Source of the DNA: Marinobacterium lutimaris
Lineage (GTDB): Bacteria; Pseudomonadota; Gammaproteobacteria; Pseudomonadales; Balneatricaceae
Direction: 5' to 3'
Assembly: GCF_900108065.1 (NCBI RefSeq)
Contig: NZ_FNVQ01000001.1
Span: 1,488,001-1,552,000 of the forward strand
DNA: 64,000 bases
The position numbers were made by a program, and so were the translations under genes. The number at the start of each line of letters is the position of its first letter. The first letter of the stretch is position 1. The notes below the pieces were generated by a model that saw only the letters and a list, made by a program, of their open reading frames with translations, was not told where the DNA came from and made no database searches. Below are positions 57,207 through 64,000 of this stretch, one piece after another.

Positions 57207-57487
57207 GCGCTTTTGAACAGGCCGCAGACCAGGCCTATAACCAGCTGACCCAAATGGAAACCGAAGCAGGCTTTGACGATAACGATAAACGCTTCTTCGC
57301 CAGCTACCTGCTTGGCCATCTGAGCCTGGTCGCCGCCGAGGGTGGCGACGACCTGGAAGCGCTGGACCGCGAGGTCAACGCCAGCCTGGATAAAGCGTTC
57401 AGCGTTGACCGTCTTTCCGATCAGGACAAGCTGGGCATCCGGTCGCTCTGGCAGGCGATTAACGCCGACATCGGCCGCGGGCTCTGA
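57203..57487 (+). CDS. yfcL: YfcL family protein
   Basis: A 94-residue helical cytoplasmic protein. The pattern DDNDKRFFASYLLGHLSLVAAE ... DLEALDREVNASLDKAF marks YfcL. Its role is unknown. It starts inside the DUF3108 stop (ATGA). Unusually, its last 67 bases overlap the 3' end of the convergent EAL gene, so the two coding regions share DNA on opposite strands. Confidence 0.85.
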   Translation: MSAFEQAADQAYNQLTQMETEAGFDDNDKRFFASYLLGHLSLVAAEGGDDLEALDREVNASLDKAFSVDRLSDQDKLGIRSLWQAINADIGRGL

Positions 57488-58668
57488 GCCCGGTCGACCA
57501 CATCCACCAGCAGCACCCGGCGCTCATCCAGCGCCAGCGACAGCGTATGGCAGACCCGACCAGTCGATATATCGCTGTAGCTGGTTGAGCTCATCACCCG
57601 GGTGTTGTAATCGTCCGATCCCACCAGCTGATAGAAGTACGGACGCCAGCTCCAGTTGGCGCCGATCACCCGTTCATCCGCGCACCACTGCTCATCCTTG
57701 AACGACCAGTTCGGTGAAATCTGGTTGCCCTGGCGATCACAGATGTAGAACCGCAGAATGTCCGGGTCGGGGCGGAAACTGGACAGGTGGGTATCGCCAC
57801 CAGCCAGCAGCAGTTCACGTAGCGCCATCAACTCAGACTTAAGCCCCTCATGATGAAACTGACGCCGGGCGGTTTCATCGATGGCCAGATCCAGATGGTT
57901 CTCCAGCAAACCCTTTACCTGCGCCTTGAAACACTCTCGCGGCGCCAGCTCTGCCTGGGCCGGCGAAAACAGAAAGCCCTGGATATGGCTCGCGTTACAG
58001 TGCAGCGCGAGGAAAAACTCATCCTCGGTCTCCACCCCTTCGAAGACCACCTTGCAGCCCATGCGCGCACCAAGGTCACCCACCATCTGCATCAGCGCGC
58101 GTTTTTGGTGCGTGATCTCGCCAGCGCTGAACATGCGGATATCCACCTTGATCACATCCGGCGTGAACGCCATAAGGCGATCAAGTTGCTGGAAGCCGGC
58201 ACCAAAGTCGTCATAGGCAACACGCACCCCCGCCTTGCGGTAAAGCGTGGCCAGTTCACGAATGCGATCGATATCGCCGTTGATCTCGGTAATTTCGAGC
58301 AGTACCTGCTCCGGCTTAACACCGGCTTCGCGGATCATATCCAGGGTGGGCAGGTTCTCGAACGACTCCAGGGAGTCGATCCACTCAGGGGAAAGGTTCA
58401 GCGCCAGCACCTGGCCGGCTTCAGCCTTGGCGGCGAACATTTTCAGCGCCTGGACACGCAGGCTGCGATCAAGCTCCAGCCGCTGCTCCGGGGAGGAGCT
58501 GTTATCGGCTCTGAGCAGATGAGCGGCAGACACCACTTCGCCCTGCTCGTTATAGCGCCGGGCCAGCGCCTCGTATCCGATGATCGTCCCCGTAGCCACA
58601 TCCACAACCGGCTGAAACCAGGGAAACACGTTATTAGATGTTATTGTTGAATTCGTATCTTTTTGCAT
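57421..58668 (-). CDS. EAL phosphodiesterase with YkuI-type C-terminal domain
   Basis: A 415-residue cytoplasmic c-di-GMP phosphodiesterase. The EAL domain spans about residues 15-255 with all key parts: YEALARR, LNLSPEW, EITEINGD, DDFGAGFQQLDRL, Lys in VIKVDIRMF, and VFEGVETEDE. A PAS-like YkuI-C/sensor domain follows (RFYICDRQGNQISPNWSF ... WSWRPYFYQLVG), which in YkuI binds a ligand or supports dimers. No membrane helix. Its 3' end runs 67 bases into yfcL. The ATG at 58668 gives a complete EAL domain. Confidence 0.92.
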   Translation of the reverse strand: MQKDTNSTITSNNVFPWFQPVVDVATGTIIGYEALARRYNEQGEVVSAAHLLRADNSSSPEQRLELDRSLRVQALKMFAAKAEAGQVLALNLSPEWIDSLESFENLPTLDMIREAGVKPEQVLLEITEINGDIDRIRELATLYRKAGVRVAYDDFGAGFQQLDRLMAFTPDVIKVDIRMFSAGEITHQKRALMQMVGDLGARMGCKVVFEGVETEDEFFLALHCNASHIQGFLFSPAQAELAPRECFKAQVKGLLENHLDLAIDETARRQFHHEGLKSELMALRELLLAGGDTHLSSFRPDPDILRFYICDRQGNQISPNWSFKDEQWCADERVIGANWSWRPYFYQLVGSDDYNTRVMSSTSYSDISTGRVCHTLSLALDERRVLLVDVVDRAQSPRPMSALIACQSDRMPSLS

Positions 58669-58831: not shown

Positions 58832-59494
58832 CTATTCAGCCAGTGTTAGTTTGATCGAATCCCCCACCCTGGCGATGCCGCCGGCGACTGGTTCCTGGCT
58901 CAAAATCTCGGGATCGGCGTCTTCAGCCGGATCGGCATCAATCTCAAGTTCCAGCTCGTAAGCCTCCAGCAGCAGCCGTGCCTGCGACAGCTTTTTGCCT
59001 GTCAGTTCCGGCACCAGGCGCAGCTCGTCGACACCTTCCGGCGGCGGTATCGGCACGATGCGAAAGGTGAGCTTGGCACTGATATCAGCGCTGTAGCCGT
59101 ATTGGTTGCTGTAACCTGCGTCCACCGGAGAAGCGTAAAGTTTCTGACTCAGATTCAAGCCACGAGCGCCCAACCGGGCCATCACAGCCGTTGGCGCCGA
59201 GCTCTTGCTTACCGCCTTGGCTGACGAAGCGCCGGCAGCACCCTGTCCGAGCTTCAGCGCCACCCGCACCTCACCCGTGGTATCGGGCAGCGTATAAAAG
59301 GTAGGGCGGTAACCGATTTCACGCAGCAGCTGCATTTTTGCATCATCACCATCGGCATACAGCTCAAGCACCGCCGCCAGCGAGCCCTCATCCAGAGCAT
59401 GTTGGGCCGCGGCCACTCCTTCACCCACCGAGGCAATAACATCACCCAGAGGCGCCGCCACCACATCGTTCACCAGGTTGCGTATATTCTTCAT
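58832..59494 (-). CDS. LGF-FY family protein ending in a PASTA domain
   Basis: A 220-residue protein and the last gene of the operon. The N-terminal part shares the family pattern of three neighbours: a helix (PLGDVIASVGEGVAAAQHALDEGS), the block LLREIGYRPTFYTLPDTTGEVRVALKL and the block YSNQYGYSADISAKLTFRIVPIPPPE. The C-terminal 65 residues are a PASTA domain (LRLVPELTGKKLSQARLLLEAYELELEI ... VAGGIARVGDSIKLTLAE). There is no signal peptide or membrane segment, so the PASTA domain would be intracellular, unlike in kinases or penicillin-binding proteins. Unknown function. AGGAGG lies upstream. Confidence 0.75.
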   Translation of the reverse strand: MKNIRNLVNDVVAAPLGDVIASVGEGVAAAQHALDEGSLAAVLELYADGDDAKMQLLREIGYRPTFYTLPDTTGEVRVALKLGQGAAGASSAKAVSKSSAPTAVMARLGARGLNLSQKLYASPVDAGYSNQYGYSADISAKLTFRIVPIPPPEGVDELRLVPELTGKKLSQARLLLEAYELELEIDADPAEDADPEILSQEPVAGGIARVGDSIKLTLAE

Positions 59495-59511
59495 CGCCCT
59501 AAGCCTCCTGA

Positions 59512-60672
59512 TCAGACTGAATCGCCCGAGCCTTCACCAAACACCACCATCACCTCGCTTCCGTGCGGCAGCGCCCCACCGGCAGCCGGGTGCTGACCTA
59601 TCGCCTGCCCCGGCACACCCTGCCCCGGCTTCAACTGCTGATGGGCGACACTCATGCGTAACCCAACCGAACGCAGCACCCGTCGCGCCGCCGATTCGGT
59701 CAACCCCTGAATGGCGGGCACGGGTACCTTCACCTCTTCGCCGGCGGTTTCCTCATTGATCAGCTCGGTGCTGATCACGCCCCCCTCGCCAAACACCAGG
59801 GACTTGCCATCCGCCGTTAACGCGCCGTGCAGATCCACTTTGATATTGCCGATACGGTAAGGCAGCTGCTGTTTCTGCATCTGCTTACGCGAAGCATCCA
59901 GTTTGCTGCCGAGCCCAAGCAGCATCCCCTCGATCTCCGCCGGCTGCTTCGTCCTGGCCTTGATCAGCTCCAACTCCCGGTTCAATGTCTGCCTTTCGAC
60001 CTGGATAGAAGCCAGATCCCGCTCCAGCAGCGCGATACGCTTGTCGGCAGTGGCGATCTGCTCCACATAGAGAGTGTTCTCCCGGGTTTTGTCCATCAGG
60101 TCCGCGTTCAGCTCCAGCTCCCTGGCCTTAAGTACCTGTAGCTCTTTATTCTTCAATAGCTCCGCCTGAATCAGCGGCGTCGCGGTAATCTTCGGGTCCA
60201 CCTCGGCGGCCAGATTGACGCCGGTGAACAGCTGCGGATTCGCGATGGCGACACGGTTCAGTGTCAGCCGGGAGGTCTGTGCCGGCACCGCTGCGGCGCC
60301 AGCCACAGTTTCACCGTTTTGTGCGAAGCGGGTTTGCGTGTGCTGCAGCGCATGGGCGGTTTCCTCAAGACGCTCGACCTTGCCAAAATCCAGATACAGC
60401 AACTGCGAACGGGGAACATAGGACATCAAGCCACCATGGGCGAGCACGCGGGGAGCGGGATTGCCCGCCTCCACCAGCCGCAGCGATGGCGCCAATGCTC
60501 CGCTGACCACACCCGCCGTCATCTGGATATTGCCTTTGGCATCGGTCTTGCCACTGGCCACCGCCAGCCAGGCATTTCGCTCCAGGTTAAAAGCTTCAAG
60601 CTTCAGCGTATGCCCCGACGCCGGCTTGCCCTCATCAGTAAACAGCTGGACCGTTGCGACCACCTTAGCCAT
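59512..60672 (-). CDS. Ig-like, coiled-coil and PASTA protein
   Basis: A 386-residue protein of unknown function. Residues about 1-75 form a beta domain like a carboxypeptidase-regulatory/Ig fold (VVATVQLFTDEGKPASGHTLKLEAFNL ... GKTDAKGNIQ). A long coiled coil occupies about 165-255. A short beta block (PYRIGNIKVDLHGALTADGKSLVFGE) precedes a C-terminal PASTA domain (VPVPAIQGLTESAARRVLRSVGL ... GSEVMVVFGE). No signal peptide. The ATG shares a base with the upstream stop (TGATG) and has AAGGAG in place. The coiled coil suggests oligomers or a scaffold. Confidence 0.72.
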   Translation of the reverse strand: MAKVVATVQLFTDEGKPASGHTLKLEAFNLERNAWLAVASGKTDAKGNIQMTAGVVSGALAPSLRLVEAGNPAPRVLAHGGLMSYVPRSQLLYLDFGKVERLEETAHALQHTQTRFAQNGETVAGAAAVPAQTSRLTLNRVAIANPQLFTGVNLAAEVDPKITATPLIQAELLKNKELQVLKARELELNADLMDKTRENTLYVEQIATADKRIALLERDLASIQVERQTLNRELELIKARTKQPAEIEGMLLGLGSKLDASRKQMQKQQLPYRIGNIKVDLHGALTADGKSLVFGEGGVISTELINEETAGEEVKVPVPAIQGLTESAARRVLRSVGLRMSVAHQQLKPGQGVPGQAIGQHPAAGGALPHGSEVMVVFGEGSGDSV

Positions 60673-61313
60673 CACGCTATCTCCTTGCCGATTACCACAC
60701 GCAGACGCTCAGCGCCCAGTTCTGCCACCAGCACGATCACGGCCTTGGTCTGCAGCGCAGGCCCGAGCGTCACTTCGACTGCTGCCTCGCCGGCCTCATC
60801 GGTCTGCACCAACGCCCGCGCCAGCTGTACCGATGCCAGCTTGGGAGCGGCAACACCGGCCGCACTGGACAGACCTATCGAGGCTTCCCTGTCCAGGTTC
60901 AACTCGATTTCGGCGCCCTGCAGCAGTTGCCCGGCGCTGGTACTGGCCTGCAACACCAGGGTTCGTTTCGCGCCCTCGGACAGTACCTCAGCCTCAAGCC
61001 TGGGCACCGGCATCCCCTCGCCGGGGGGCACGGCAATGAATCGGCCGCTGATTCGGCTCGCTACCTCCCTTGAGCTTTTCTCCTGCTTCAGCGGCAGAAA
61101 CTTGAGGCGGAAACCGCCGGCGGGAGTCGACTCCGACTTCAACTCAAAGCCGATCTCAAAATCCAGATGGGGAATGCGGTACTGCGGCATGGGCCTGCCA
61201 TAGCTATCCAGCGGAGCCAGGGTGTTCAGCTCCTCCTGGGCCTCGCGCAGACTTTCGGCCATACCGGCGAGCAGGCTTTCCAGGGTATCTGCGATGAACT
61301 GTCCTTCGCTCAT
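60672..61313 (-). CDS. DUF2589-like protein with an Ig-like C-terminal half
   Basis: A 213-residue protein with no sure family. Residues 5-95 contain an Ala/Glu-rich helix (LESLLAGMAESLREAQEELNTLAP), then YRIPHLDFEIGFELKSE and a strand SRISGRFIAVPPGEG. This resembles the helix-then-beta pattern of DUF2589 proteins only loosely. The C-terminal half (TLVLQASTSAGQLLQGAEIELNLDRE ... LVQTDEAGEAAVEVTLG) looks like a bacterial Ig-like domain. No signal peptide. GAGG precedes the ATG. The stop overlaps the start of the next gene, indicating coupled translation. Confidence 0.65.
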   Translation of the reverse strand: MSEGQFIADTLESLLAGMAESLREAQEELNTLAPLDSYGRPMPQYRIPHLDFEIGFELKSESTPAGGFRLKFLPLKQEKSSREVASRISGRFIAVPPGEGMPVPRLEAEVLSEGAKRTLVLQASTSAGQLLQGAEIELNLDREASIGLSSAAGVAAPKLASVQLARALVQTDEAGEAAVEVTLGPALQTKAVIVLVAELGAERLRVVIGKEIA

Positions 61314-61388
61314 TCCAACAACCTCATACAGGTGACTTCATAGAGATGACTGCATACAGATAAGCAACAAGGTTCTATGTACCGGGCA

Positions 61389-62348
61389 CTAGCCTTCAGT
61401 TTCTTCCCGTTGACGTTCACGGTGTTTCTCTCTGGCACGCTGCCGACGCTGCTCGTCGCGTTGTTCTTGCAGCATCGCATCACGTCGGCGCTCCAGCGCA
61501 CGCTGGCGATTAGCCCGCATCCGCTCAAACAGATCGCCGGAGCCACCCCGCTCCAGCGACATTTGTTGTTCGCGGCGCTCGGCATAACCGGAGTACCTAT
61601 CCATGGCGCCGGTGATCTTCCGCTGCCGACCGAGCCAGCCGGATTCGATCTGTTCCGCTGCCCGTTTCGGCCTGTCCATTACTGCGTTGACCCGATCCAA
61701 TACGGCGCCGGCCTTGTCGATTTTGTCGCCATGGAGCGCCTTTCGCACTTCGCTTCGCTCCGCGTCCGATACCCCTTCGCTGGCAAGCTGGCGATCAAGA
61801 TCACGCAACTGGGTGCGTGCACCGCTGACAGAGCGCTGCGCACTGTCGAGCGTATCGCTCAGCGGCCGCACCGCCTCCGCGCTCCTGGCCAGCGCACTGC
61901 GCGCTGCACCCAAGCCACTGCTGAACCGGTCGCCTATACCTCCAGCCAAACCACTACGCCCCGCCAGCCCTGCATCCATTCGTCCTTCCAACGGAGATGG
62001 ACCCAACTGTCGTTCAGACCGACCGGTCCCACTGCGTTGCTGACCCGCGGCACGCTGGACCGCCCAGGCCTGCTCCTGCGCACGTCGTTCGGCAAAGCTG
62101 GCCACCGGGAAGCGTTGTCGCATCGCATCATCGGCGCTTTCTTCGCCGGTGACCTGCCGAAGTCTGGCTTCAAGCTCATTACGCTTCTCAAGTAAGCGGC
62201 CCAGCTCAGTACCCGGTGCGAGATTGGCGGCCTGTTCCAGGTTGCCCTGTGCGCCGGGCGTGATGGATGGCAGCCCGGGAAACAACGCCGCCGACGACTC
62301 CGTATCAGCAGCGGTGGCTTCCAGGTCTCGCCAGCTACGCCTGGGCAT
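61389..62348 (-). CDS. Arg/Glu-rich helical protein, unknown
   Basis: A 319-residue protein I do not recognise. It is almost all helix and loop, rich in Arg, Glu, Ala and Gly, with a disordered N-terminal 100 residues, a glycine-rich patch (GLAGRSGLAGGIGDRFSSGLG) and a strongly charged C-terminal coiled coil (MRANRQRALERRRDAMLQEQRDEQRRQRAREKHRERQREE). No signal or membrane segment. It begins 3 bases after the upstream stop, with weak ribosome site, so translation is probably coupled. A scaffold or nucleic-acid-binding role is conceivable but not shown. Confidence 0.65.
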   Translation of the reverse strand: MPRRSWRDLEATAADTESSAALFPGLPSITPGAQGNLEQAANLAPGTELGRLLEKRNELEARLRQVTGEESADDAMRQRFPVASFAERRAQEQAWAVQRAAGQQRSGTGRSERQLGPSPLEGRMDAGLAGRSGLAGGIGDRFSSGLGAARSALARSAEAVRPLSDTLDSAQRSVSGARTQLRDLDRQLASEGVSDAERSEVRKALHGDKIDKAGAVLDRVNAVMDRPKRAAEQIESGWLGRQRKITGAMDRYSGYAERREQQMSLERGGSGDLFERMRANRQRALERRRDAMLQEQRDEQRRQRAREKHRERQREETEG

Positions 62349-62351
62349 GAT

Positions 62352-62918
62352 TCAGCCGTTATCCGCTTCGGCCTGGGTGGCGGCGATCATCGCGCGAATC
62401 CGTTCTTCGAGAATCGCCGGCGGCGGCACCGGGACCAACTTGGTGCGCAACAACGACGAGCCCTCGGCTGAGTACTGGTACTTGGAGGAATAACTCGCCG
62501 AAACTGAGCTGACGCTCATTTTGGCTGAGGCAGAGAAGAACCCCACCTTGCCGCTGACCGAAGCGTTTACCTGGGTAGACGAACGCTTGAAGTTGGTCTC
62601 CCGTGACATGGAGATCGAGAGCTTGAGTTCGATCAGCGTATCGACAAACTGGTAGAAGGTCGGTACGAAACCGAGCTCAAGCAGCGAGTACTCCTGACCA
62701 TCGCCCAGCTTCACCAGTATGTTGCGCTCCGGCGGCTCCGCAGCCGGCGGCGACGGTTCCCCCTCTTCCGGCTCAGGATCCGGCGCGTAGCCCGCCATCA
62801 TCCTGGCAATCTTCAGCGACACCAGATCGAGCTCGTACTGGGCCTCTGCGATACCCACCCCCAGCGCCCGCACCATCTCGGGGAAGGGGGTATTCTGCAT
62901 TTCTGTGCCAATAGACAT
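62352..62918 (-). CDS. LGF-FY family paralogue (188 residues)
   Basis: A 188-residue member of the operon's repeated family. It has the N-terminal helix (TPFPEMVRALGVGIAEAQYELDLVSLKIARMM), an acidic Pro-rich loop, the block LLELGFVPTFYQFVDTLIELKLSISMSRE, a Ser-rich stretch and the C-terminal block YSSKYQYSAEGSSLLRTKLVPVPPPAILEERI. Function unknown. Close to the 245-residue paralogue upstream, so local duplication is likely. AGAGGG precedes the ATG. Intracellular by lack of a leader. Confidence 0.75.
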   Translation of the reverse strand: MSIGTEMQNTPFPEMVRALGVGIAEAQYELDLVSLKIARMMAGYAPDPEPEEGEPSPPAAEPPERNILVKLGDGQEYSLLELGFVPTFYQFVDTLIELKLSISMSRETNFKRSSTQVNASVSGKVGFFSASAKMSVSSVSASYSSKYQYSAEGSSLLRTKLVPVPPPAILEERIRAMIAATQAEADNG

Positions 62919-62958
62919 GGGCTTACCCTCTGCTTGGTAGCGAACAAAGGCTCAGGCG

Positions 62959-63696
62959 TCAGCTGTTGTCGGCCTCTTCAAGACTGGCATTACGCCGCGC
63001 CTCTTCAGTTTCCATAAACGAACGGATGCGATCCTCCAGCACTGCCGGTGGCGGCACGGGGACGATTTTTGTCCGCAGAATCGACGCGCCCTCCGCCGAG
63101 TAGGAGTACTTGCTCGAGTAGGTTGCATCGACCTGGCTGGTGGCTACCGAGCTGCTGCTACCACTGGAGCGGCTGGTCCCCCAGAAGGAGCGCTTGCGTT
63201 TATAGGCGTTGGCCTTGTCGGTTTTGGTGTCGCTGCGGGTACGGCTATATTCGCGCTCGCGGGTGATCTTGATGGCTATCTTCACCTCGATGATGGTATC
63301 GACGAACTGGTAGAAGGTCGGTGTAAAACCCAGCTCCATCATCGAATGCCGCACCGGCACGCGGATCTCCGCGTTTTCATCAAGCCCTTCGATCAGCGGC
63401 GCCAGCACCTCGGTAAGCTTGATGACGTCATCGCCGAGGGTGCCGCTGAGCGCATCGTCCACGGCGGCGTAGGCAACCGCCTCCTTAACGGTCATATATT
63501 CGTAGCCGAAGAAGACCCGGCTATCGTCAAAGCTGACCTTGCCTCTCTCGTCGTAAACCGTGGTCAGGCCGCCCATCATCTCGGCCACGTTGATGGAGTT
63601 TTCGTCGAGCTGGTACTGACCGTCGGCGATGGCAAAGGCCATCTGCCGGATCATGTCCCCCATAGGTACGTTAAGCAGTTCCTGTCCGATAGCCAT
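62959..63696 (-). CDS. LGF-FY family paralogue (245 residues)
   Basis: A 245-residue member of the same family. It carries the helix VPMGDMIRQMAFAIADGQYQLDENS, an insertion of about 60 residues (MMGGLTTVYDERGKVSFDDSR ... ), the block MMELGFTPTFYQFVDTIIEVKIAIKITRE, a basic, Ser-rich linker (RSDTKTDKANAYKRKRSFWG ... SSSSVATSQ) and the C-terminal block YSSKYSYSAEGASILRTKIVPVPPPAVLEDRI. Function unknown. AAAGGAG precedes the ATG. Starts 12 bases after the partial gene upstream. Confidence 0.75.
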   Translation of the reverse strand: MAIGQELLNVPMGDMIRQMAFAIADGQYQLDENSINVAEMMGGLTTVYDERGKVSFDDSRVFFGYEYMTVKEAVAYAAVDDALSGTLGDDVIKLTEVLAPLIEGLDENAEIRVPVRHSMMELGFTPTFYQFVDTIIEVKIAIKITREREYSRTRSDTKTDKANAYKRKRSFWGTSRSSGSSSSVATSQVDATYSSKYSYSAEGASILRTKIVPVPPPAVLEDRIRSFMETEEARRNASLEEADNS

Positions 63697-63708
63697 CGTC
63701 GTTCTCCT

Positions 63709-64000
63709 TTAGATCTCTTGCTGATACTGCTGCTTGAGCAGCAGCAGAAACGTCTCCGGGGCCGGCAGTGAAACCAGGCGCGCCGCGATGGACGACATCC
63801 CCTCCGCCGACACGGAAAACTTGCGCGCATAGCCCACATCCACCGATGCCGCCGCCATGAAGATGCCGTAGTTGACGCCCGCCTGGACGCCCACATTGAC
63901 CGAGGTTTCGGTGCTTTCGGTCATACTGAAACTGAGCTTCGCCTCCACCGTAGCTTCGGTGAAGGCATAGAAACTCGGTACAAACCCCAGCGACAGCAGG
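63709..64000 (-). CDS. LGF-FY family paralogue, partial (runs off the window)
   Basis: The 3' part of a fourth paralogue; the start lies beyond 64000. The visible 96 codons include LLSLGFVPSFYAFTEATVEAKLSFSMTE, then VGVQAGVNYGIFMAAASVDVGYARKFSVSAEGMSSIAARLVSLPAPETFLLLL, aligning with both conserved blocks of the neighbours. The final KQQYQQEI replaces the charged tail seen in the others. The operon therefore continues to the right of this window. Confidence 0.72.
   Translation of the reverse strand, partial: LLSLGFVPSFYAFTEATVEAKLSFSMTESTETSVNVGVQAGVNYGIFMAAASVDVGYARKFSVSAEGMSSIAARLVSLPAPETFLLLLKQQYQQEI

Follow-up and report, generated by a model that had tools for sequence, protein, structure and literature searches.

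Contractile injection systems and phage tails are built from parts that lack leader peptides, carry wall-binding domains and are accompanied by a wall hydrolase. PASTA domains usually occur on a membrane kinase or a PBP. The orphan family DUF2589 (Pfam PF11655) often comes in pairs. Seven of eight genomes had two matches to it, although in G524 the two may belong to a single frame. DUF2589 genes lie near GH19, GH24 or Amidase_3 genes at three of six chromosomal loci, and a peptidoglycan-hydrolase or peptidoglycan-binding gene is close to several of the pairs. In one report that mentions DUF2589 (PMC3949148), AF0414-AF0417 are up-regulated on lactate.

We describe an operon from a Marinobacterium species that, by analogy, may be likened to injection systems and phage tails, with leaderless parts, wall-binding domains and an accompanying wall hydrolase. 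It differs from contractile injection systems, T6SS and tailocins in having no sheath, tube, baseplate or ATPase recognizable in Pfam (ten products) or in NCBIfam and PHROGs (nine products, all but T), and in having no viral relatives that we could find. The phages searched gave no match, and two scans of viral contigs returned pattern matches but no confirmed relative. Together these searches argue against a phage origin. Pfam, PHROGs, NCBIfam and PADLOC gave matches only at the level of single domains, and full-text literature searches found no description of such a system. As far as these searches show, the remark in the preliminary description that no such system was known to its author still stands.

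Organization and spread of the operon

We analyzed a window of 64,000 nucleotides and the sequence beyond its end. Seven minus-strand open reading frames lie inside the window, spaced by 17, -4, 75, 3, 40 and 12 bp, in keeping with the close (3-75 bases apart) or overlapping genes noted previously. The operon was also correctly said to run off the window: the gene cut by the window end encodes 154 aa, and three further genes, A1 (596 aa), T (206 aa) and U (375 aa), lie past it. The complete operon has ten genes in the order U-T-A1-A2-A3-A4-R-B-C-D, and the seven in the window are its 3' part. The features are as follows (window coordinates).

63709..64000, continuing to 64173 (L002:11709-12173), minus strand: A2, minimal LGF/DUF2589-like subunit, 154 aa (96 aa inside the window)
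62959..63696, minus strand: A3, LGF subunit, 245 aa (open reading frame and alignment)
62352..62918, minus strand: A4, LGF subunit, 188 aa (open reading frame and alignment)
61389..62348, minus strand: R, Arg/Glu-rich protein, 319 aa (open reading frame and composition)
60672..61313, minus strand: B, 213 aa, N-terminal helix and LGF-resembling hairpin followed by an Ig-like domain
59512..60675, minus strand: C, 387 aa, coiled coil and C-terminal PASTA domain (Pfam)
58832..59494, minus strand: D, 220 aa, LGF module then PASTA domain, final gene of the operon (Pfam and alignment)
57421..58668, minus strand: EAL + YkuI_C protein, a chromosomal gene flanking the inserted block and outside the system (Pfam)

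The gene set is conserved across phyla. A locus scan confirmed 245 loci, and we analyzed the best 80 of these. A3 was the query for the survey of relatives and the first row of the query alignment in the locus scan. The identical ten genes in identical order were present in 63 of the best 80 of 245 loci, in Gamma-, Alpha- and Betaproteobacteria and in Bacteroidota, and A2 had an orthologue in all 63. We interpreted most of the other 17 loci as truncated at a contig end, going by contig position alone. T was over-extended in L057, L086 and L089, and R was split in L082. The apparent true departures were L050, which has A1-A4 only, and L121 and L122, in which R was not found. Purifying selection acts on each of the ten genes, with dN/dS of 0.017-0.175 relative to the nearest operon and 0.031-0.270 relative to the next (0.017-0.031 for A2). 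A3 is 92% identical to its counterpart in M. mangrovicola. In Amphritea and Neptuniibacter, extra clade-specific genes (104-117 aa and 471-720 aa) lie 3' of D.

Distribution of the operon is patchy. LGF genes and full-length U occurred together in the same 6 of 57 near genomes, and the other 51 had neither. In an evenly sampled set of 398 Pseudomonadota genomes, the A4 profile was found in the window's own genome only, indicating that the system is rare. Alphaproteobacterial operons nest inside gammaproteobacterial ones. The ten-gene set is apparently a self-contained module that moves horizontally. A survey of homologue neighborhoods, as proposed in the preliminary description, did reveal a conserved gene set. 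Homologues standing alone in unrelated contexts did not turn up, nor did a match of the whole set to a named system.

LGF paralogues and their partners

The two sequence blocks previously said to be shared by four products (LGF/FY...E-x-K and Y-S-A-E-G...P-x-P) are real, but the count needs revision: there are five LGF paralogues (A1-A4 and D), and B carries a weaker version. Eight residues are invariant in 23 aligned proteins (A24, Q27, D31, G123, P126, Y129, P215 and P217, numbered as in the 245-aa protein). In a quick tree, into which A1 was entered by its ends only, the paralogues clustered by operon position, with 4 label changes for 5 groups of 20, the minimum, compared to an average of 60.9 for shuffles. 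A1, A3 and D each fell on one side of a branch (support 100 for D); A2 and A4 taken alone required two changes each. This grouping by position indicates that the duplications are older than the spread of the operon.

Profile comparison shows that the LGF family is remotely related to DUF2589. The resemblance had been called loose, but the profile-profile score was 43.9 (hhalign probability 88.6%, E 2.6e-6), compared to 7.7 and 12.7 for reversed controls and at most 6.0 for 40 column shuffles. The similarity is collinear and includes an N-terminal helix, a short P-containing segment, an acidic/basic strand, a long hairpin and a closing helix. At the gathering score no LGF protein matched PF11655 in Pfam, and a family search found no match in the window genome. 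DUF2589 also differs in having no ten-gene system. B scored 32.7 against the LGF profile. Among 38 parsed shuffles (of 40) one reached 126.8 and the next 9.0, making this control less clean. Direct comparison of B with DUF2589 was not significant (probability 5.8). A third Sphaerotilus protein considered as B-like was unsupported (probability 5.9), and a TelA-type gene near the Sphaerotilus plasmid locus, more than 12 kb away, was taken as chance.

Sequence profiles found no LGF or DUF2589 relative in the PDB (best E-values 0.045 and 0.55). An AlphaFold2 model of A4, of low confidence (mean pLDDT 59.8), has a helix (12-41), strands (88-105 and 148-164) and a C-terminal helix. A fold search with this model gave nothing at E 0.001 and is not meaningful because the model is poor. 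We consider it very unlikely that the LGF hairpins insert in a membrane as an oligomeric barrel, acting as a pore or in holin-like lysis. The helix and long hairpin of the A4 model are compatible with such a barrel, as are the amphipathic strands that a beta-moment test (null of 300 column permutations per family) detected at the hairpin base of A1, B and D. However, a soluble sheet is equally expected to give amphipathic strands, and A2, A3 and A4 had only 3 or 4 windows above the 99% null, compared to 1.4-2.4 expected, with none in the outer hairpin. Clear amphipathicity is confined to the hairpin base, which leaves the pore as a weak alternative. Endolysin-like neighbors are found at 11 of the best 80 of 245 loci. 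The locus differs from a phage holin-endolysin cassette in that TM-like segments occur in 4, 0 and 0 of 63 A2, A3 and A4 proteins.

The three remaining products of the window had been described as combining Ig-like, coiled-coil and Arg/Glu-rich parts. The C-terminal domain of B is Ig-like, and a second structure search matched B over this domain only. Across 63 orthologues of R, Arg accounts for 13.6% of residues and Glu for 9.1%. R has no match in Pfam, NCBIfam or PHROGs at E 0.01 and is likely a scaffold. Two stretches of the U profile, 7-77 and 229-294, align with chains of bL12 (E 2.6e-5, to 1ctf, and 9.8e-4). U thus resembles the C-terminal domain of ribosomal protein bL12 by sequence profile, but differs from bL12 in its length of 375 aa, in carrying two or more of these domains and in that full-length U was confined to operon-bearing genomes among 57 relatives. 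T in the window genome scored 43.7 bits to TPR_1 (Pfam cut-off 27.8), and 6 of 10 T proteins reached the cut-off of a TPR family. Cross-phylum gene order and positional orthology support the earlier suggestion of a multi-subunit assembly of paralogues with scaffold-like partners.

Wall-binding domains, export signals and neighboring hydrolases

PASTA domains were recognized by Pfam in D (30.5 bits) and C (25.3 bits; cut-off 23.2). In a scan of 93 proteins (31 each of C, D and A1), PASTA matched 58 at E 0.01 (62 of the proteins are C or D) and OmpA matched 26; at least 5 of 31 A1 proteins have no detectable OmpA domain. Coiled-coil families were scattered among the scanned proteins. The OmpA match of the window genome's A1 is borderline (27.2 bits, equal to the cut-off). 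In the long A1 proteins, the predicted wall-binding pair is conserved, Asp in 48 of 53 and Arg in all 53, although one of the 53 (L108) aligns doubtfully. In contrast to the usual contexts of these domains, the OmpA domain of A1 is inserted within an LGF protein that has no signal peptide, and PASTA in C and D is carried by neither a membrane kinase nor a PBP.

Signal peptides were assessed by hydropathy alone. In each of the ten roles, at most 1 of 63 proteins had an N-terminal hydrophobic segment. TM-like stretches anywhere in the chain were found in 17 of 63 U proteins and 10 of 63 B proteins. Cysteine makes up 0.112% of residues in the eight structural roles, compared to 1.50% in U and T and 0.93% in a set of 302 more distant genes, and is absent from A2 in 62 of 63 orthologues. 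Most neighboring hydrolases have several cysteines. Tryptophan is also low in seven of the eight structural roles, so the depletion of cysteine may also reflect composition.

A peptidoglycan-hydrolase-type gene (M15, CHAP, Amidase_2 or M74) adjoins the window's own operon and 11 of the best 80 of 245 loci; the other 69 have no adjoining hydrolase of these kinds. We checked 10 of these genes, from 9 loci, together with the hydrolase gene of the window, and hydropathy revealed no N-terminal signal in any product. Pfam identified PG_binding_1 (6), Amidase_2 (4) and CHAP (3) in 119 adjacent genes (121, with two over 900 aa omitted). In 119 distant genes, drawn randomly from those of at most 900 aa among 344, none of the three ranked in the 25 commonest families, a comparison in which single far matches could be hidden. 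This is the unbiased comparison; in a phmmer check most queries were near genes, so its all-near outcome was partly built in. A divergent patatin-like gene lies beside one locus and a divergent, weakly lipase-like gene (24.0 bits, cut-off 27) beside one locus.

In the window genome, the M15 peptidase gene sits in the same inserted block as the operon. Among 57 relatives, full-length M15 was found only in two Marinobacterium genomes that have the operon at the same site; one genus member lacks both at the insertion site. M. zhoushanense (G005) has the operon but not the M15 gene. There is a terminator-like hairpin between the M15 gene and U, so the two may not be co-transcribed. On the other side, the EAL + YkuI_C gene is 163 bp from D. 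Its counterparts (66-70% identity) are present in four operon-free genus members, in one of which it adjoins a YjbQ-like and a small gene, with neither operon nor M15 between.

Possible functions of the assembly

The title of the preliminary description placed the PASTA domains inside the cell. Both the 220-aa and the 387-aa protein do contain the domain, but an intracellular location is unsupported and probably wrong, because the OmpA ligand residues are kept, peptidoglycan hydrolases adjoin in some lineages and cysteine is nearly absent. For these reasons a purely intracellular scaffold, in which PASTA and OmpA folds merely make protein contacts, seems unlikely to us, even though it would account for the missing signal peptides (by hydropathy), the lack of consistent TM segments and the many loci without a wall hydrolase.

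It is possible, if doubtful, that the operon encodes a lysis device or a particle that delivers toxins or enzymes. It would exit the cell or break the wall so that leaderless hydrolases, joined in some lineages by other enzymes that attack the envelope, reach competitors, and would thus resemble a phage tail or injection system in action but not in its parts, which are unrelated. The leaderless hydrolases, the patatin- and lipase-like genes, the extra genes of Amphritea and Neptuniibacter and the patchy, nested distribution are consistent with this. The lack of a recognizable sheath, tube, baseplate or ATPase, the 69 loci without an adjoining hydrolase and the searches for viral relatives argue against it.

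Patchy transfer and differing neighbor enzymes would also fit abortive infection, with a conserved core sensing phage and freeing a variable suicidal effector (peptidoglycan hydrolase or phospholipase). We think this quite improbable. PADLOC-DB 2.0.0 gave no whole-protein match to the ten proteins, only partial ones to the PASTA part of PD-T4-6 (3.5e-5) and the OmpA part of ZorB (1.4e-4), with weaker ones at 0.004-0.007. No sensor or nucleotide-handling domain was recognized in Pfam, and the cysteine depletion suggests work outside the cytoplasm.

We favor, at about even chances, an assembly that is made in the cytoplasm and acts on peptidoglycan outside, serving a hydrolase in some lineages. 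A1, A2, A3, A4, D and, more remotely, B would form a hetero-oligomer of position-specific DUF2589-like subunits, with R as a charged scaffold and C as a coiled-coil/PASTA rod. Building would take place in the cytoplasm, probably helped by U, through its L7/L12-CTD-like domains, and T, through its TPR. The finished assembly would be active outside the reducing cytoplasm, at peptidoglycan, where A1, through its OmpA domain, and C and D, through PASTA, would hold it in place. In some lineages its partner would be the leaderless peptidoglycan hydrolase encoded next to it (M15 here), to which it may supply a route to substrate. It is inferred that the subunits co-assemble, that their product leaves the cytoplasm and binds the wall, and that it serves the hydrolase.

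We regard this strictly ordered, transferred ten-gene operon, unnamed as far as we searched, as a strong candidate for a novel macromolecular machine. Its hosts include environmental bacteria that are not pathogens. More tentatively, and with the chances against it, the operon may represent a new class of nanomachine, unrelated to phage tails and built in the cytoplasm from DUF2589-superfamily subunits, that takes leaderless wall-degrading or other envelope-attacking enzymes across or onto envelopes, with DUF2589-lysozyme pairs as its minimal form. The orphan family DUF2589 gains a first testable role, in wall-directed assemblies with peptidoglycan hydrolases.

The ten-gene operon, its borders and its distribution

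We found that the seven minus-strand genes of the preliminary description are real, and reading into the flanking contig gave the full operon of ten genes, U-T-A1-A2-A3-A4-R-B-C-D. The window spans positions 1488001-1552000 of contig C18 in a Marinobacterium genome. Purifying selection acts on all ten genes, and the constraint is strongest on A2. The operon and its borders are as follows.

Genes 5' to 3' on the minus strand, with protein length and gap to the next gene (58832..64000 of the window holds part of A2 through D)
M15 peptidase gene with a peptidoglycan-binding domain, U side of the operon, with 413 bp between its stop codon and U
U, 375 aa, -4 bp
T, 206 aa, 30 bp
A1, 596 aa, 19 bp
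A2, 154 aa, 12 bp
A3, 245 aa, 40 bp
A4, 188 aa, 3 bp
R, 319 aa, 75 bp
B, 213 aa, -4 bp
C, 387 aa, 17 bp
D, 220 aa
EAL/YkuI_C gene, 163 bp after D

A terminator-like hairpin sits between the M15 gene and U, so in this genome M15 is probably transcribed separately from the operon. In this location, the M15 gene and the operon behave as a single inserted block. A full-length M15 gene was found in only two of 57 genomes related to the window genome, and these are the two Marinobacterium genomes with the operon at this position. In a member of the genus that lacks the operon, the EAL gene adjoins a small gene and a gene that we take to be YjbQ-like, with neither M15 nor the operon between. M. zhoushanense has the operon at a different site, without the M15 gene. 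A stretch of the same contig lying outside the window, some 15 kb from the operon on its upstream side (C18:1571201-1574991; L003), encodes an RCC1-like repeat and phage-tail-like proteins, as judged by eye, and is perhaps a prophage remnant.

We scanned one genome per species (84,980 genomes) with a degenerate pattern. It matched 284 stretches, 245 of them encoding relatives, and the best 80 of the 245 were analyzed. The complete gene order was present in 63 of these 80 loci: 34 belong to Gammaproteobacteria, 17 to Alphaproteobacteria, 11 to Bacteroidota and 1 to Betaproteobacteria. Of the remaining 17, most were apparently cut by contig ends or by the ORF-start rule used; as far as can be seen, three loci (L050, L121 and L122) are genuine departures from this order. 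Partial or divergent gene sets occur in records named Latescibacterota, Myxococcales and Acidobacteriota.

The system is rare and patchy. Genes for LGF proteins (the paralogues A1-A4 and D) were found in 6 of the 57 relatives, and full-length U in those same 6; weaker U matches in other relatives were ORFs mostly of 122-140 aa, the size of bL12. The sole match among 398 evenly drawn Pseudomonadota genomes was the window genome itself. The operon has probably been transferred, since in a quick tree 5 Paracoccaceae-type operons grouped with 4 Marinobacterium and Saccharospirillum operons (support 99) within a mixed clade. A Sphaerotilus plasmid carries a reduced locus (L034:14992-17422) encoding two LGF proteins, a third protein and a coiled-coil-like protein. 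The N-terminus of the third protein appeared similar by eye, a reading that hhalign did not support.

LGF paralogues and the domains of their partners

The five LGF proteins cluster by operon position. In a tree from 20 loci, the five groups required 4 label changes, which is the minimum, compared to a mean of 60.9 for shuffled labels. A1, A3 and D are each separated from the rest by a single branch; for A2 and for A4, considered singly, two changes are required. Because the paralogues group in this way, the duplications predate the spread of the operon. Each LGF copy probably does a different job, which would fit a hetero-oligomer.

The LGF profile aligned end to end with DUF2589 (Pfam PF11655; hhalign 88.6%, E 2.6e-6). 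A local rerun scored 43.9; reversed profiles reached 7.7 and 12.7, and none of 40 shuffled ones exceeded 6.0. None of the LGF proteins in the window reached the Pfam DUF2589 model, and no solved structural relative of LGF or DUF2589 was found by sequence profile. An AlphaFold2 model of A4 was poor, which may happen when subunits fold solely within an assembly.

The N-terminus of B is an LGF-related module (probability 77; the shuffle control had one odd outlier), and its C-terminal end is an Ig-like domain of the intimin/invasin type. U has two or more L7/L12-CTD-like domains, and T belongs to the TPR proteins: the T of this operon scored 43.7 bits, and 6 of 10 T proteins reached a TPR cut-off. 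PASTA domains in C and D matched in 58 proteins and the OmpA domain of A1 in 26 (31 each of C, D and A1 scanned). The OmpA domain separates the LGF module into two halves. In long A1 proteins its ligand residues are conserved (Asp in 48/53, Arg in 53/53; one of the 53, from L108, aligned doubtfully). The role of these residues is known from work on OmpA and Pal.

Nine loci from Amphritea and Neptuniibacter (L105-L107, L109, L110, L112 and L118-L120) have two extra genes after D, encoding 104-117 aa and 471-720 aa. Two of the longer products were scanned, and both had hydrophobic stretches and no Pfam match. At these loci A1 is short and its insert is absent.

The preliminary description knew of no described system with this content, and our searches agree. 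Pfam, NCBIfam, PHROGs and PADLOC gave single-domain matches and no named system; no relative was found in phages and viral contigs; and a full-text literature search, covering few subscription papers or preprints, found no description. The only paper found naming DUF2589 refers to a lactate-induced gene cluster of Archaeoglobus (PMC3949148). The ten-gene system belongs to none of the systems tested and is a remote relative of DUF2589. Its leaderless, tail-like logic may be likened to that of phage tails.

Cysteine content and predicted location

No role consistently had an N-terminal hydrophobic segment by hydropathy (at most 1 of 63 proteins per role). TM-like stretches anywhere in the chain occurred in U (17/63) and B (10/63) and were rarer in the remaining roles. 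The eight presumed structural proteins contain 162 cysteines in 144,798 residues (0.112%). In contrast, U and T contain 547 in 36,388 (1.50%, a figure that may shift as some T reading frames were over-extended N-terminally), and 302 genes farther out at the same loci have 0.93%. A2 was cysteine-free in 62 of 63 species, as was A4; among 155 local control genes with products of 140-300 aa, 14% lacked cysteine. Because cysteine is nearly absent from the eight and not from U and T, the simplest reading is that the eight would act outside the reducing cytoplasm and that U and T would remain inside. Composition could contribute to the depletion.

Peptidoglycan-hydrolase neighbors and a possible function

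A peptidoglycan-hydrolase-type gene directly adjoined the operon at 11 of the best 80 of 245 loci (in one case a fragment of 63 aa where the contig ends), with the window's own additional; the remaining 69 of the 80 had no such neighbor. The types were M15, CHAP, Amidase_2 and M74, upstream or downstream, and the linked loci occupy about nine places on the operon tree, read by eye. In an unbiased Pfam search, PG_binding_1 (6), Amidase_2 (4) and CHAP (3) matched among 119 adjacent genes; none of the three was one of the 25 families most often matched in 119 genes farther out. The neighboring hydrolases examined had no N-terminal signal by hydropathy, and several do contain cysteine. DUF2589 genes have similar neighbors: GH19, GH24 and Amidase_3 genes at 3 of 6 chromosomal loci examined, and, on 2 of 5 plasmid stretches (one of the five has no annotation), genes annotated as peptidoglycan-binding no more than a few kb away.

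Several other genes lie near these loci. Downstream of D in two loci (L104:14687-15793 and L116:14718-15752), an Amidase_2 domain and a CobU (cobinamide kinase) domain are fused in one frame, which may reflect fusion to the operon that follows. The Oceanobacter locus (L099:15317-18802) encodes, after D, two wall-related proteins that have the pattern RGYxLxGMxSP...LIGRVGT in common near the N-terminus; it may be a tag for sorting or docking. Divergent genes upstream of the operon encode a patatin-like phospholipase in Roseomonas (L057:5054-6199) and a weakly lipase-like protein in Marinobacter (L061:4243-5772). Beside DUF2589 pairs, a protein of 1756 aa that contains the motif HEAWHVVQQ, and that we take to resemble DUF4157, adjoins a GH19 gene (L139:770-6040), and a gene after an Amidase_3 gene (L141:9517-11316) encodes what is presumably a DUF2235-like protein related to Tle1-type lipases.

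The gene set, the orthology of its members, their domains, the conserved ligand residues, the cysteine pattern and, at a minority of loci, the hydrolase linkage are read directly from the data. We infer co-assembly of the products, their exit from the cytoplasm, wall binding and service to a hydrolase. Alternatively, the complex may transfer enzymes to other cells, lyse its own host, or protect against phage. Most likely, U and T would aid the assembly, in the cytoplasm, of A1-A4, B, C, D and R into a particle or a spanning complex. The assembled complex would contact peptidoglycan via OmpA and PASTA and, in some lineages, would serve a leaderless wall hydrolase.
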